64,000 nucleotides of DNA. It comes from Bacillota bacterium. Its GTDB lineage: Bacteria > Bacillota > Clostridia > Oscillospirales > Acutalibacteraceae. Both the position numbers and the translations under genes were made by a program. The stretch is taken from positions 1 to 64,000 of the forward strand of contig JAETSA010000005.1 of NCBI GenBank assembly GCA_021769885.1, given 5' to 3'. The notes beneath the pieces are model-generated. The model was not told the DNA's origin. It saw only the letters and a program-made list of their open reading frames with translations, and did not search any database. Below, piece by piece: positions 1,410 through 21,591 of the stretch (position 1 is its first letter; each line of letters opens with the position of its first letter).

Positions 1410-1866
1410 TTAACACCTTTGCGGTATTCTCAGTTGTGGTTTTCCAAGATGTCCACCGCAGGATTTACATACACAGATGTTTATCCCGTATAGCTGTTTC
1501 AGTATTTCCGGCATTTCCTTAGCCCTGAGCTTTGAAAGATATTTTTTGCATCCGAGAAGATTCCGGCATAAAGTGAGTTTTTTGTGTTTGCTGCGGGAAC
1601 ATAGAAGTCCATAATGCCGGATCCTGACAAAACGTCTGGGTGGCACATGCATCAGAAAACGCCGTATGAATTCAATGCCGGAAATGGTCAGTTCCTTCCA
1701 TTGTCCTTCTTTCCGGTAATCCTTAACGGAAAAAGTAACATTTTCATCATCCATATGGATGATGCGGTGATTGCTGATAGCGATCCTATGGGTATACTTT
1801 CCAAGGTAATCAATCACAGATTGTGCACCGTTAAAAGTTTTCTTACAGTAAGGAACCCATTCTGCG
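1410..1866 (-). pseudogene. IS91-like (Y2_Tnp) transposase, C-terminal half only
   Basis: WVPYCKKTFNGAQSVIDYLGKYTHRIAISNHRI...; frame continues upstream of the listed Met to about 1866 and is fused into the recombinase 3' end. Y-x-x-x-Y motif kept, no HUH motif. Confidence 0.75.
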
Positions 1867-2695
1867 TCATAACAGGAATGAGGGATTTGTTGCTGACATG
1901 AAGATAAACTTCCGTAGATTTCGGATCACGGTGTCCAAGCAGAGCTTGAATGTTCTGCCGTTCTATGCCCTGTTCCATCAGATGGGTTGCAAAGCTATGG
2001 CGGAGACAGTGAGGGGTTGCTGCCTTTGGAAGTTCTGCATCAGCTACTGCCCGTCGCATTACCTGTTCCAGAGTACTGACTGTTAGATAATTACCGGTAA
2101 ATTTATTCGGAAACAGGATGCCACGGGGACGACCTTTCTCAAACCAATATTGTGTAAGGATATCCAGACAACGTTTGGAGAGAATGGTATAACGGTCCAT
2201 TCTATTCTTGGTATTCCGGACATGGATCTGCATATTTGAACGGGAGATATCGTCATAATGAAGATGGATCACTTCAGAAACTCTCATACCTGAGGAATAC
2301 ATGACTGCGAACATAGCCTTATATTTGATATCATCAACAGCATCTAACAGGCGGTCAATCTCAGAGGCAGTCAGTACAGTAGGAAGCTTATGTTCTAGGA
2401 TCATACGTGGAACTGTGATGTCATCCCAAAGGATATGCAGGACATTTCGATAGAAAAAACGGATGGCAGAATTGTAAAGATTCAGAGTTGTGGCTTTCAG
2501 TCCTTCCTCTTTTTTCGCAAGCAAAAAAGCCCTGACATCCTGACAGGTAAGTTCTTTGGGATTCTTATTCTGATATTTCAGAAAGTAAGAAACATAGTTT
2601 TTATAGCAACTGATGGAACGTTCTTTGAGGTTACGGATTTTCCCGGCTTCCTCAAGCTGTTCTAAATATTTTTCATACATAATAAAATCCTCCAT
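1814..2695 (-). CDS. Tyrosine recombinase/integrase (XerC/D-like, IS91-associated type); start may be Met at 2680
   Basis: SAM-like N-domain and catalytic residues: SSGMRVSEV, HCLRHSFATHL, LLGHRDPKSTEVYLHV. Confidence 0.85.
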   Translation of the reverse strand: MEDFIMYEKYLEQLEEAGKIRNLKERSISCYKNYVSYFLKYQNKNPKELTCQDVRAFLLAKKEEGLKATTLNLYNSAIRFFYRNVLHILWDDITVPRMILEHKLPTVLTASEIDRLLDAVDDIKYKAMFAVMYSSGMRVSEVIHLHYDDISRSNMQIHVRNTKNRMDRYTILSKRCLDILTQYWFEKGRPRGILFPNKFTGNYLTVSTLEQVMRRAVADAELPKAATPHCLRHSFATHLMEQGIERQNIQALLGHRDPKSTEVYLHVSNKSLIPVMTQNGFLTVRKLLTVHNL

Positions 2696-14184: not shown

Positions 14185-14763
14185 TCACGCGTTTCTTGCG
14201 ATTTGCTGAAAATCCAATACCTCTGCATCGCATTCCTGCGCCTCACACGGGTCGTGCGTTACAAATAAAATCGGTCGAAGCTTTGCCTGCTGCCGCAGAA
14301 GCTGAATCATTTTGGAACGCAATTCCACATCCAGCCCTTTAAACGGCTCATCCAAAAGTAAAACATCGCTTTGATGTGCAAGTGCCCGTGCAAACGCGAC
14401 GCGGCGCTGCATCCCGCCGGAAAGTGCCGACGGCAGACTGTTCGCCTCCTGCGACAAGCCGACGGCGGCAAGCCACTGTCGAGCAGTTGGCACGTTACAT
14501 ACTGCCGACACATTTTCTAGAGCGGTCGCCCACGGCAACAGACGGTTTTCCTGAAACATAAACGTATACTTCTGCGGCATACCGACTATTTTGCCGCTTT
14601 TCGGCGTTTCCAAACCGCACAGCAAGCGCAAAAGCGTGGTTTTTCCACAGCCCGACTCCCCCATCAGCGCTGTAATCCCTGTTAAGCAAAACGTATAGGT
14701 TAAATTCGAGAAAACGGTTTTACCGTCGTAAGCCATTTCCACATTCTGCAATGCAATTTTCAC
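14185..14763 (-). CDS. ABC transporter ATP-binding protein (nitrate/sulfonate/taurine type)
   Basis: GESGCGKTTLLRLLCGLE, LSGGMQRRVAFARAL. Confidence 0.88.
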   Translation of the reverse strand: MKIALQNVEMAYDGKTVFSNLTYTFCLTGITALMGESGCGKTTLLRLLCGLETPKSGKIVGMPQKYTFMFQENRLLPWATALENVSAVCNVPTARQWLAAVGLSQEANSLPSALSGGMQRRVAFARALAHQSDVLLLDEPFKGLDVELRSKMIQLLRQQAKLRPILFVTHDPCEAQECDAEVLDFQQIARNA

Positions 14764-15557
14764 GATTGACCCTCCCGTTTTGCCGTCTTTGCAATTTTGC
14801 CGACCGCAAAGACAATCCCTTTTTCAACAAGCATACTCAGTAAGATGACGACCACCGTCCAGGCAAACAGGTCAGTCGTTTCCAAATAAACCTTCGCGTT
14901 ATATAACTGCGTGCCGATAGAGTTTCGCGGTGTGCTGATGACTTCCGCCGCAATTCCTGATTTCCAGGCGAAGCCAACCGCCGTAGTTAATGCGGTAAGC
15001 AATGTGGGAAGCACACTCGGGATATAAATGCGGCGCAGAATTTGCATAGGTGTAAAACCATATGCCTTTGCCATTTCTAAAAGACGGGCATCCGTTTCGC
15101 GGATTGCCGTGGTTAAGTTCGCCCAAACAATCGGTAACACCATTAAAAAAGATATAAAAACAGGTACTTGCGACTTTTGCATCCACACAAGTGCCAAAAT
15201 AATAAAAGACACCACAGGCGTAGTCTTTACGACGGTCAGCATCGGCTTAAAAAAGCTGTACAGCACTTTTGATGCGCTTGTGAGCACGGCAAGCAGGACG
15301 CCGAAAAACGCACCCAGCAAATACCCTTCCATAATACCGAGCAGGGAGAAAAACGTTTTCAGCCAAAAGTCCTTAGTGACAATCAGCTCCGCGATTCGCT
15401 TGAGAACATCCAAGGGCGAAGCGAATAAAACGTCTTTTCCAATCAAAAAATATAAAAATTGCCAAAGGCAAAGCCATACGGATACCGAAATCAGTATCCG
15501 CACGGCTTTTTGCAGTTTCTGTTTTTTTTGAAGCTTACACACCATACCAGAAATCAT
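14760..15557 (-). CDS. ABC transporter permease (SsuC/TauC type)
   Basis: EAA-like loop; TM profile; overlaps the ATPase gene. Confidence 0.88.
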   Translation of the reverse strand: MISGMVCKLQKKQKLQKAVRILISVSVWLCLWQFLYFLIGKDVLFASPLDVLKRIAELIVTKDFWLKTFFSLLGIMEGYLLGAFFGVLLAVLTSASKVLYSFFKPMLTVVKTTPVVSFIILALVWMQKSQVPVFISFLMVLPIVWANLTTAIRETDARLLEMAKAYGFTPMQILRRIYIPSVLPTLLTALTTAVGFAWKSGIAAEVISTPRNSIGTQLYNAKVYLETTDLFAWTVVVILLSMLVEKGIVFAVGKIAKTAKREGQS

Positions 15558-16515
15558 TGCCCGGCATCTTACCGCCGACAGCTTTCATATCCGCATTCAA
15601 AAGCACATTCAAATTTTCGGTTGCAATCTTCTGCATATCCGCACCGGTTACGCAAGTGATACTGCAACGCGGAATTGCCTGCTTCGCCACTGCGGCTTTC
15701 GGAATAATCCCGTACTGCTCACATAAAGCGGCCGCACCGTCCACATCGGCAGCAGTGAAGTCCACAGAAGTCTTGTATTCCGCCAAGAACGCATCGATGG
15801 CGGCTTTGTTTTGCTCTGCAAAATCTTTTTTTGCAACAATACAGCCCATTGCAAGTGAAACCCCCGAGGCACTTTCAAAAGCGGCGGACACATCAAGCAC
15901 ATTTTTCAGTGCTTTGTTTTGCAGCATTGCGGCGGTCACATTCGGCTCAGGAAGCAAAAACACGCGTGTATCGTTGGCATCCGCCGCCGCGGCAAGTGTT
16001 GCGACCTCGGCGTGCTCTGACTTAAACTCGACCGTTACTGCATCCTTCAAGCCGTTTTTCTCCAGCAAATAATTCAGAACATATTCAGGTGTTGCACCTT
16101 GACCCGCTAACACGACGGTTTTGCCGCGCAGTGCGCCGATGTCCGCCACGTCGTTTGTGGAAAGCATATACAGCGTACCAAGCGTGTTGATTGCGAGAAT
16201 CTGTAAATTTCCGCTCAGTTTATTATACATCACAGACGCCATATTCAGAGGGCACGCCGCGAGGTCAAAATTGCCTGCCGCCATACCGCTCATAACTTCG
16301 GTTGGGTCTGCGCACAAGGTAACCGTGTAATTGTTTGCGGCGTTCCCCGCATCATTTTCCTGCATCAGCTTCGCTGTGCCGATACCGGTCGGGCCTTTCA
16401 GGGTTGCCAAACGGATATTCGTTTTTTCTGCGGGGACATCCGCATCCTTTGCGCCGCAGGCCGCAAGTGAGAATACAAGCAAGACTGCCAGCAGAAGAGA
16501 AATTACTTTTTTCAT
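15535..16515 (-). CDS. ABC substrate-binding lipoprotein (SsuA/ThiY-like), ligand unknown
   Basis: Lipobox SLAACG; overlaps both neighbours. Confidence 0.85.
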   Translation of the reverse strand: MKKVISLLLAVLLVFSLAACGAKDADVPAEKTNIRLATLKGPTGIGTAKLMQENDAGNAANNYTVTLCADPTEVMSGMAAGNFDLAACPLNMASVMYNKLSGNLQILAINTLGTLYMLSTNDVADIGALRGKTVVLAGQGATPEYVLNYLLEKNGLKDAVTVEFKSEHAEVATLAAAADANDTRVFLLPEPNVTAAMLQNKALKNVLDVSAAFESASGVSLAMGCIVAKKDFAEQNKAAIDAFLAEYKTSVDFTAADVDGAAALCEQYGIIPKAAVAKQAIPRCSITCVTGADMQKIATENLNVLLNADMKAVGGKMPGNDFWYGV

Positions 16516-17210
16516 TTTGGCTCATCCTTTATGAATAATTTTATATTTTTGCCGCTGTGCTGTAATTTCCCGCGTGCACAAAGGCTGTCCAAAGCGCGGT
16601 AGATTCCGGCACGGCTGACATTGATTTGCCTGGAAAGCTCTGTCATAGAAATGCCGTTGACAGAGCCGTCTGCATCACAAATACTCAACAAATACTGTAA
16701 CAATTTTTCCTCGCCGTTCGGCGCAGTATACGCCTCAATTTTCGTATTCAGAAAATAAATGCGGTTGGAAAGATAACGGACATAGGAGAGTGCAAACTGC
16801 GGTTCGGACTGCATCAAGCGGTCAATTCCCGTCTTTTTGAGCAAAAGCACTTTACACTCTGTTTTTGCCGTGATTGTATTGACAAAACGTTCGGCGTCGT
16901 TATACAAAACGACCGCCCCGAACTGCATTCCGCGTTTCAGCACACTCACGGTGACGTGGTCTTTTGTGACACGCGCCTCTCCTTTTAAAAGCACGCCGAT
17001 ATACTTTTCCGTGCTTTCGGGAGAATACAGAACTGCACCCTTTTGAAAGCTGTGAATCACGGCATCATCGGATAACAGCCGCTCTAAACGCTCGGTAGAA
17101 ACAGCAGAAAAAAGAGCAGACTGCCGCAAAACGGAAATACATTGTTGTAGTTCTTCTTTCATATCCGCCTCGTTTTTGTCTCGTTTGATACAGTAATTGA
17201 AGTGTAGCAT
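16512..17210 (-). CDS. Crp/Fnr-family transcriptional regulator
   Basis: Cyclic-nucleotide-like domain and HTH MTELSRQINVSRAGIYRALDSL; 4-nt overlap with the SBP gene. Confidence 0.85.
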   Translation of the reverse strand: MLHFNYCIKRDKNEADMKEELQQCISVLRQSALFSAVSTERLERLLSDDAVIHSFQKGAVLYSPESTEKYIGVLLKGEARVTKDHVTVSVLKRGMQFGAVVLYNDAERFVNTITAKTECKVLLLKKTGIDRLMQSEPQFALSYVRYLSNRIYFLNTKIEAYTAPNGEEKLLQYLLSICDADGSVNGISMTELSRQINVSRAGIYRALDSLCARGKLQHSGKNIKLFIKDEPK

Positions 17211-17357: not shown

Positions 17358-18152
17358 TCAAAGCACCTTGGAAAGGAACTCCTGTAAGCGCGGATTTTGC
17401 GGATGATTGAAAAGCGCGTCGGGTGTACCCTGCTCTAAAATTTTACCGTCGTCCATAAAGAGCACACGGTCACCGACTTCGCGCGCAAAGCCCATTTCGT
17501 GTGTGACCACAACCATTGTCATACCGCTTTTCGCAAGGTCTTTCATCACGTCCAAAACCTCGCCGACCATTTCGGGGTCTAATGCAGAGGTCGGCTCGTC
17601 AAACAGCATCACATCGGGATTCATTGCAAGCGAACGCACAATCGCCACACGCTGTTTTTGACCGCCCGAAAGCTGTGAAGGGTATGCATCCGCCTTATCG
17701 GAAAGTCCGATACGCTCCAACAGCTTTAAAGCGTTTTCTTTTGCATCCGCTTTAATTTGCGCTGTGGATTTTAACGGTGCTTCCGATGCGCCCGATTTTT
17801 TTGCACTGCGTTTTTGCTTGCGCATTTGCTTTTTCTGCGTAAGAATCGGGGCTAAGGTAATATTATCGAGCACCGTCATATTGTTAAACAGATTGAAATG
17901 CTGGAACACCATTCCGATATTTTGACGCTGTTCGTTGATATCGACCTTCAAATCCGTCAAGTCTACACCGTGATACAGGACCTGCCCTGAGGTTGGATCC
18001 TCCATACAGTTCAAGCAGCGCAAAAGCGTACTTTTGCCCGAGCCGGACGGTCCGATAATAACGACCTTCTCACCCTGCTCAATCGTCAAATCAATACCTT
18101 TTAATACCTGTAAATCACCAAAGCTTTTGGTCAGGTTAACGACCTCTATCAC
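17358..18152 (-). CDS. Polar amino acid ABC transporter ATP-binding protein (GlnQ-like) with Lys-rich insertion
   Basis: [42 protein letters not shown]. Confidence 0.93.
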
Positions 18153-18861
18153 TCTTCCTCAGGCTCCTTTCCATCAGCTTTACAAACAGACTGATTATCA
18201 GTACAAGCACAATATAAATAACTGCCATTACAAGATACGGAATCATAAATTCATAGGTTGCCGTACCGATTTTTCGGAACGCAACATACAAATCCGTCGC
18301 GCCGATAAAGCTGACAATCGACGTTTCCTTCACCAATGTGATAAACTCGTTACCAAGCGTCGGCAAAATATTTTTGATTGCCTGCGGAATGACGATTTTC
18401 ATCATTGTCGTGCCGAAGCTCAAGCCCATAGCACGACCGCCCTCCATTTGCCCGGGGTCAACCGAAAGAATGCCGCTGCGCATAATTTCGGAAATATAAG
18501 CGCCCGAGTTCATACCGAATACGATGCAAGCCACCGTAACCGACGGAATGTTGATGCCCATAAGCGGCAGTGCAACGAAATAGAACAGCAAAAGCTGAAC
18601 CACCATCGGCGTGCCGCGGAAGAAGCCGACATATACACTGCAAATGCCGTTTAGAATTTTCGGCAATTTCTTATATTTCGGCAAAACGCGAACCGTGGCA
18701 ATCAGCGTACCGATGACAATACCGATTAAAAGACCTACAACGGCGATTTTGGCGGTATTTTGCAGACCCGTCAAAATTTCAGATATGTACGCATCCGCAC
18801 TGCTGCCTTGAAACAGCTCGATAAATTTTTGAAATTTACGACCAAAGCTACCCATATTCAA
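18136..18861 (-). CDS. Polar amino acid ABC transporter permease
   Basis: His/Glu/Gln/Arg permease family motifs ([50 protein letters not shown]). Confidence 0.93.
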
Positions 18862-18884: not shown

Positions 18885-18919
18885 GACAATAGCCTCACCG
18901 AAAAGGTGAGGTTATTGTC
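18885..18919 (-). promoter_or_regulatory. 15-bp intra-operon hairpin between SBP and permease genes
   Basis: gacaatagcctcacc-gaaaa-ggtgaggttattgtc; one wobble/mismatch. Confidence 0.65.
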
Positions 18920-18940: not shown

Positions 18941-19792
18941 TTACGCAGCTTCGTTAATGGATTTCACAATGGAATCCGCAGGAGCGGCGTCAATGATGAC
19001 ATACTGCAGGTTGCCGTTGACAACATCCTGCACTGCCATAGCACCGTTGGAATAGCCTTTTGCAGATACTTTGAATCCGTTTGCTTCATAATCGCCGGTG
19101 CTCTCTGTAAACAGCTGACCGGTTGTGCCGTTCTGGAAGCCGATGTTTGTGGTGCTGTCCATTGTCTTGAGAATGGCAATCACATCGTCTGCGGTTTTGC
19201 ATTCGTCAAACTTCGTGTCATCACCCTTGACAATCAGCTTCTGAGAAGCCTGATAATAAGATTCGGAGAATGTAACAGACTCTTTACGCTCTTCGTTAAT
19301 GGTAAGCCCCGCCATTGCAATGTCGCATTTGTGACTGCCGACAGCCAAGCATACTGCTTCAAAGTCCATATGCTGAATGACAAGCTCTTTGCCGAGCTTT
19401 TCTGCAAGCAGTGCGGCAATTTCCATATCAACGCCGAGGAAGTTGTCCCCTTCCGTATACTCAAAAGGCGGGAACTCTGCATTGGTGGCAACAACCAGCT
19501 GGTCTTTGCTCTCGTCGAGTGCGGCGGATTTGATTGCTTTGGGCGTACCGTCGCCGAAGTAGTTGTTGAAAACTTCGTCCAATTTACCGTTTGCTTTGAT
19601 TTCAGCGATGAAATCGTTGACCTGCTTTAACAGCTCAGGCTGATCTTTATCCACACCGAATGCATACTCTTCATCGGTCAGGTTGATGTTGATCACCTTA
19701 ACTGCGGGAGTCTTTGCGCCGCAAGCCGCGAACATACCGACAACCAGCGTCAAAGTCAAAAGAAGTGCAAGAACTTTTGTTGCTTTTTTCAT
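18941..19792 (-). CDS. Amino acid ABC transporter substrate-binding lipoprotein, apparently circularly permuted
   Basis: Lipobox MFAACG; SBP type-3 core begins at KDQLVVATNAEFPPFEY; segment EEYAFGVDKDQPELLKQVNDFIAEIKANGKLDEVFNNYFG (normally C-terminal) lies at the N-terminus. Confidence 0.9.
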   Translation of the reverse strand: MKKATKVLALLLTLTLVVGMFAACGAKTPAVKVININLTDEEYAFGVDKDQPELLKQVNDFIAEIKANGKLDEVFNNYFGDGTPKAIKSAALDESKDQLVVATNAEFPPFEYTEGDNFLGVDMEIAALLAEKLGKELVIQHMDFEAVCLAVGSHKCDIAMAGLTINEERKESVTFSESYYQASQKLIVKGDDTKFDECKTADDVIAILKTMDSTTNIGFQNGTTGQLFTESTGDYEANGFKVSAKGYSNGAMAVQDVVNGNLQYVIIDAAPADSIVKSINEAA

Positions 19793-20353: not shown

Positions 20354-20851
20354 TCAAATGAATTTTACACAGGGGACATCTTCAATCAGACACACGGCGT
20401 GTGCGGCAATGCCCTCTTTGGCACCTGTAAAGCCGAGCCCCTCTTCTGTTGTGGCTTTCACGCTGACACACGACACAGGCAAACGGCACGCACGCGCAAT
20501 GTTTTCGCGCATTCCGTCTATAAAGGGTGCCAATTTCGGAGCCTGCGCCAAAACGGTTGCATCAATATTATTTACAGAATAGTGTTCTTTTTTTAACAGC
20601 GATACAACTTCTTCTAACAGTTTCAAGCTGTCTGCGCCTTTATAGCGTTCATCTGTATCGGGAAAATGCTTGCCGATGTCGCCGAGCGCCGCCGCACCCA
20701 AAAGTGCATCGCTGACCGCGTGCAGCAGGACGTCCGCATCGGAATGTCCTAAAAGCCCAAACCCGTTATTTTCAATTTCCACACCGCCTAAAATCAGTTT
20801 ACGCCCTTCGGTTAAGCGGTGTACATCATAGCCGTGTCCTATTCGAAGCAT
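20354..20851 (-). CDS. ispF: 2-C-methyl-D-erythritol 2,4-cyclodiphosphate synthase
   Basis: [47 protein letters not shown]. Confidence 0.97.
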
Positions 20852-21591
20852 TTTTCTTTCCTCCCTGCAAGTATCCCCTCCGCCAGTGCGATGTCCTCCG
20901 GCGTGGTGATTTTGATATTTTCGTAGCTGCCCTCCACCATAAACACGGGGATTCCTGCCGATTCCATCAATTTACAGTCATCCGTAAACGCGGTGCTGTT
21001 CGGCACTGCAGCGGCGGCTTGCAAATACAGTGGACGCGAAAACACCTGCGGCGTATGCACTGCCCAAAGGGCGGTGCGGTCGGGCGTTTCCAAAATTCTG
21101 CCGTCTCTCGCTACCACCTTAATGGTATCCTTGACACGCACGCCTGTGGCGGCGGCGTTTTCCGCGAATGCCTTTTGCACAGTCAATTCAATAATCTCCT
21201 GTGTAACTAACGGGCGTGCGCCGTCGTGAATCGCAAAAAATTCCGATTGCAGCGAAGCCCTGTGAATGGCGGCAAACACGCTTTCCTGCCGTGTTGCCCC
21301 GCCTTTTACGATGTCCGTCACCTTTCGGATTTCGTAAGCTTTGACAGCCGCAAACAAATCGGAAATATCCTGTTCTCTCGTGGCGACCACAATTTCGTCA
21401 ATCCACGGGCTTTCCGAAAAAGTCCGAAGTGTCCGAATAAGCACAGGGACGCCGTCAATCCGCAGTTTCTGCTTATTGACGCCGCCCATTCGTGTAGAAT
21501 TGCCCGCCGCTACAATTACCGCTGTGACAAACGGATGTGCAGGCTCTGCGGACAACCCTGTATTCTTTTTTTCAGAGCAAAATAAACGCAT
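20839..21591 (-). CDS. ispD: 2-C-methyl-D-erythritol 4-phosphate cytidylyltransferase
   Basis: [30 protein letters not shown], overlaps ispF. Confidence 0.95.

Follow-up and report, generated by a model that had tools for sequence, protein, structure and literature searches.

Circularly permuted amino-acid-binding lipoproteins of ABC importers in Clostridia

Family-3 amino-acid substrate-binding proteins (SBPs; PF00497) have a canonical order of three blocks: the N-terminal part of lobe 1 (block A), lobe 2 (block B) and the C-terminal part of lobe 1 (block C). In a 64,000-nucleotide stretch of contig JAETSA010000005.1 from a gut Bacillota bacterium (hereinafter, the window), one lipoprotein gene was initially annotated as a circular permutation of this family, with the C-terminal block moved to the front. 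The locus thus raises the question of whether the encoded protein is a genuine permuted SBP and, if it is, how its block order is distributed and arose among its relatives.

Block order and operon of the window protein

The gene (18941–19792, minus strand) encodes a lipoprotein of 283 amino acids, for which block-specific HMMs, Pfam matches and an alignment with AncQR establish the order C-A-B; the open reading frame, coordinates and peptides quoted in the initial annotation were all exact. The signal peptide (19721–19792, minus strand) ends in the lipobox FAAC, whose Cys24 is invariant in alignment A1 and nearly invariant in alignment A2. The C block, now N-terminal (residues 30–80, 19553–19705, minus strand), comprises the last strand of lobe 2, the hinge-2 crossing and the two C-terminal helices of lobe 1, and is followed by a new linker (residues 81–97, 19502–19552, minus strand) that connects the canonical C- and N-termini. 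The A block (residues 98–190, 19223–19501, minus strand) holds the N-terminal part of lobe 1 and the hinge-1 strand, and contains the amino-acid-site residues N104, F107, F144, T164 and R169. The B block (residues 191–283, 18944–19222, minus strand) corresponds to lobe 2, forms the new C-terminus and carries Q220-G222-T223-T224 and D268.

HMMs built from canonical-order relatives alone matched the protein in the order C, A, B (E 8e-15, 1e-35 and 2e-11, respectively). The C-block match at residues 32–79 bears out the proposal that residues 31–80 (bases 19553–19702) are the canonical C-terminal block; among the 466 window frames no other passed with the C-block HMM (best other E 0.67), and none of the three block HMMs matched any other window frame below E 0.2. 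A Pfam search across the genome to which the window belongs returned the split PF00497 match in reversed order that had been named as a sign of permutation, with profile positions 97–131 at 19553–19774 (E 7e-7) lying upstream of positions 1–116 at 19160–19498 (E 1.3e-24, minus strand). A single canonical profile gave two separate matches of 38.5 and 169.4 bits, and the same profile doubled head-to-tail gave one match of 203 bits over residues 26–278. On the solved structure of AncQR (4zv1), residues 98–278 correspond to chain positions 11–177 and residues 30–81 to positions 182–233. A second C block encoded downstream in frame, which would have argued against a permutation, is absent, as the gene closes with TAA at 18941 and the permease gene comes next; nor does a second C block occur in any C-A-B protein of the census. 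By score, the protein belongs to PF00497 (113 bits against a curated cut-off of 26.4), although the canonical block order of that family is absent; because its order is C-A-B, we regard it as a permuted variant of the family rather than an ordinary member.

The gene is preceded by a Shine-Dalgarno-like AAAGGGG and followed on the same strand by genes for an amino-acid-type ABC permease (18136–18861, minus strand; PF00528 profile) and an ABC ATPase (17358–18152, minus strand; PF00005 profile). For the permease, translation more likely begins with an ATG at 18855 than with the listed TTG. The SBP gene is separated from it by a strong stem-loop (18885–18919, minus strand; minimum free energy z-score -3.84), which probably causes unequal expression by allowing the SBP to be made in excess. 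Genes for a related permease and ATPase are found downstream on the same strand in all 59 loci with enough flanking sequence. Farther downstream, minus-strand genes at 14760–17210 were assigned by eye to a Crp/Fnr-like regulator, an NMT1/SsuA-like binding protein and an ABC permease, apparently a separate importer cluster. On the other side of the SBP gene, overlapping minus-strand genes at 20354–21591 look by eye like ispF and ispD.

Predicted structure, cut site and ligand site

The AlphaFold2 model, computed with 44 homologues, is confident (mean pLDDT 92.5, pTM 0.82). It places strand 31–34, the hinge region and helices 52–79 ahead of strand 98–103, which is the first strand of ordinary members, and ends in a terminal helix at 269–282. 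In a Foldseek search of the PDB, the A and B blocks superimposed on GlnBP and AncQR at 1.9–2.8 Å over about 185 columns, the matches including glutamine- and arginine-binding proteins; the TM-scores by target of 0.68–0.71 are as expected, since a sequential aligner must omit the C block. None of the 50 Foldseek matches listed was a full-length sequential match, and the matches listed from profile searches of PDB sequences likewise included no chain in C-A-B order.

The C-A-B cut (canonical 166/167) falls in the loop between the last helix of lobe 2 and the strand that enters hinge 2, and therefore both hinge crossings are kept. As a result, the proposed change of topology holds for the lipid anchor, which in the model would sit at an N-terminus on lobe 2 instead of lobe 1, but not for the hinge. 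Since the fold, the cleft and both crossings are kept, the protein should close on an amino acid and dock on its permease in the usual manner.

The ligand site is strongly conserved. Among 44 aligned proteins, R169, D268, T223 and T224 are identical in all, as are the other site positions with the exception of T164 (43/44, one Ser) and I267 (42/44, conservative changes). In GlnBP and LAO, these positions are established to hold the carboxylate (Arg) and the amino group (Asp) of the ligand, together with a Thr/Gly loop. Judged from the conserved site, the fold, the operon and knowledge of the family, the window protein would serve a type I ABC importer as an ordinary amino-acid receptor. It agrees with GlnH, ArgT/HisJ, ArtJ and AncQR of cluster F in sequence family, fold, residues of the cleft, anchoring as a lipoprotein and permease/ATPase operon, and differs from them in its C-A-B order and in having its N-terminus on lobe 2.

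Permuted relatives, their distribution and their tree

The C-A-B clade is old and widespread in Clostridia, with more than 100 loci across the class. The first 19 C-A-B relatives share 52–95% identity. A scan of 84,980 species genomes recovered at least 80 loci, nearly all with the full-length permuted order, in metagenome-assembled genomes of Oscillospiraceae, Ruminococcaceae and Lachnospiraceae and in isolate-named records, such as Eubacterium ruminantium FB3002 (L107) and Eubacterium sp. MSJ-21 (L104). In surveys at the order, class and phylum levels, strong full-length matches were found in several Clostridia families, and none was found beyond the class in 399 phylum genomes. A less biased, hand-counted sample of PF00497 proteins from 44 genomes of the order, with block HMMs applied to the unclear ones, contained about 80 family-3 proteins, approximately 20 permuted versus 60 canonical, the permuted ones being present in 17 of the 44 genomes; another 45 genomes of the phylum yielded three permuted PF00497 proteins.

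Relatives of the window protein show further block orders. A census of 255 loci, enriched for permuted forms because the query itself was permuted, comprised 133 C-A-B, 40 B-C-A and 38 A-B-C loci. Two related proteins, L185 (1477–2298, minus strand) and L237 (1535–2398, minus strand), are cut at a third site, halfway through lobe 2 (canonical 127/128). The cuts cluster near canonical positions 96, 100–108, 128 and 166 of 218, all in lobe 2 and with almost no residues lost. Two of these loops, near 96 and near 100–108, are used by B-C-A proteins, which fits separate events. Family-3 domains also occur in tandem. Canonical tandems (L219, L220 and L236) are fused to a permease or long enough for one, and permuted tandems in B-C-A phase were found in L031 (four A blocks), L032 and L235. 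The proteins L031 (617–4288, plus strand, 1224 aa) and L032 (1558–3801, plus strand, 748 aa) combine tandem family-3 domains with a permease domain, a fusion that was read directly in these two; three other B-C-A proteins (L172, L222 and L223) have sufficient length for a fused permease. At one locus, L150 (G298:C33), a C-A-B gene and a B-C-A gene directly follow each other (588–1454 and 1501–2370, minus strand), so that two different permutations of one fold are neighbours.

The relationships were examined in a tree of 93 units, re-rotated to the A-B-C order and aligned over 199 columns, in which some deep branches are weak. The main C-A-B clade has support of 100/98, and nested within it are six B-C-A proteins that form a clade of their own (100/99), which in the tree amounts to a switch from one permuted order to another. 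Outside the main clade, the C-A-B protein L034 falls into a 100/100 clade with the canonical L122 and the B-C-A proteins L035–L037, the C-A-B proteins L156, L157, L160 and L239 are placed among canonical proteins, and the B-C-A protein L026 is nested among canonical proteins of the window's own genus (clade support 100/99). The well-supported branches require a minimum of four changes for C-A-B and of seven for B-C-A. In AU tests, whose groups were defined with knowledge of an earlier quick tree, a single clade was rejected for all B-C-A proteins (p 2e-42) and for a core B-C-A set (p 6e-4), and one clade of all C-A-B proteins plus the nested B-C-A proteins was rejected with moderate strength (p 0.026). 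These tests reject a single origin of B-C-A and disfavour one of C-A-B.

The most serious alternative is that one ancient permutation was inherited by all C-A-B proteins and that the repeated origins reflect tree error. The weak deep branches, the 199 columns and a rejection of no more than moderate strength (p 0.026) speak for it, but the position of L034 beside a canonical and three B-C-A proteins, the scatter of the four other C-A-B proteins among canonical ones, and the B-C-A order occurring in several clades with two different cut loops make it improbable. Far less probable is a canonical SBP truncated at its C-terminus, with an unrelated domain acquired at the front, an idea to which the shortness of the C block (about 50 residues, 20–50 bits by itself) lends some colour. 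Chance similarity or an unrelated domain is ruled out by the C-block HMM match (E 8e-15) and the reversed PF00497 match at profile positions 97–131; the predicted order of strands and helices is also that of the canonical C-terminus. Moreover, on the 218-position canonical profile the window protein begins at 165 and ends at 166, and nearly all of 135 C-A-B proteins start at 163–171 and end at 163–170, with a closure (start minus end minus 1) mostly between -5 and +3 residues; therefore, almost nothing was lost or repeated at the cut. An assembly error, local rearrangement or pseudogene, conceivable given that the nearest relatives are mostly metagenome-assembled genomes, is least probable of all and as an artefact is ruled out by the same order with intact frames in 133 loci, isolate-named records among them, the complete operon in 59 of 59 loci and the invariant site residues.

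Origin of the permuted order and its significance

We thus interpret the window gene, with high confidence, as encoding a permuted Venus-flytrap amino-acid-binding lipoprotein of an ABC importer, whose old C-A-B clade represents one of several separate permutations. In the proposed scenario, mature domains would have been duplicated in tandem and the outer parts then lost, leaving a family-3 chain cut in the lobe-2 loop just ahead of the strand entering hinge 2, with a linker bridging the former C- and N-termini, which both lie on lobe 1. The lipid tether would thereby have shifted to lobe 2, and the SBP would work with the downstream permease and ATPase as one ABC importer. Across C-A-B proteins, 20–32 residues separate the profile matches of the C and A blocks, close to the combined length of the C-terminal tail (median 3) and the post-lipobox spacer (median 18) of canonical proteins, which fits a tandem duplication of mature domains whose outer parts were then lost. 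That such duplications occur is seen in the tandem proteins; this route is suggested by the tandem forms and the linker length, no intermediate having been caught. A more speculative and rather unlikely extension is that gut Clostridia re-permute the family-3 fold repeatedly under selection for a shift of the lipid tether away from lobe 1 and onto lobe 2, with the permease-fused permuted tandem arrays as steps on the route; it was considered because every reproducible cut cluster falls within lobe 2 and one clade passed from C-A-B to B-C-A.

Two known systems are closest in design. GlnPQ (6h30) likewise has tandem family-3 domains fused to a permease, but its domains are canonical A-B-C, whereas the arrays L031, L032 and L235 are in B-C-A phase, L031 and L032 being the permuted counterpart of GlnPQ. 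A single continuous match to the B-C-A profile spans B1-C1-A2 of 6h30, which shows how a permuted unit sits embedded in a tandem. The glucose-binding TpMglB-2 (Tp0684) is an ABC-importer binding lipoprotein with a naturally occurring circular permutation, for which the class "Type Ic / Cluster Bc" was proposed; it reportedly binds glucose with a change of shape, and has homologues in Gram-positive gut bacteria (PMC4990184). Its permutation added a fourth hinge crossing and moved N-lobe strands to the end of a Type I / cluster B sugar fold (PMC4990184). The window protein falls outside that sugar-binding class, its Pfam matches (PF00497 and PF10613) and Foldseek matches being amino-acid SBPs; it has the cluster F fold, keeps both hinge crossings and, in contrast to TpMglB-2, has relatives with several different cuts. 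In the open-licence literature, where absence is weak evidence, TpMglB-2 was the sole precedent found for natural SBP permutation, and no natural permutation of amino-acid (cluster F) SBPs was found.

The surprising part is the recurrence. As a rule, natural circular permutation is encountered as one ancient event. In this case, a single small fold exists in several orders among living relatives, some within one genus; its separate origins, recurrently used cut loops and tandem arrays allow a direct comparison of how permutations arise and of what they alter. Permuted proteins are under-annotated because linear profiles and sequential structure aligners score their halves; the window protein reaches 106 bits with the best NCBIfam model, against a cut-off of 303. 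The cut loops may serve as ready-made insertion sites for sensor design. For the family itself, these lipoproteins constitute a natural experiment in which a two-lobed binding protein has been rewired and still appears to work.
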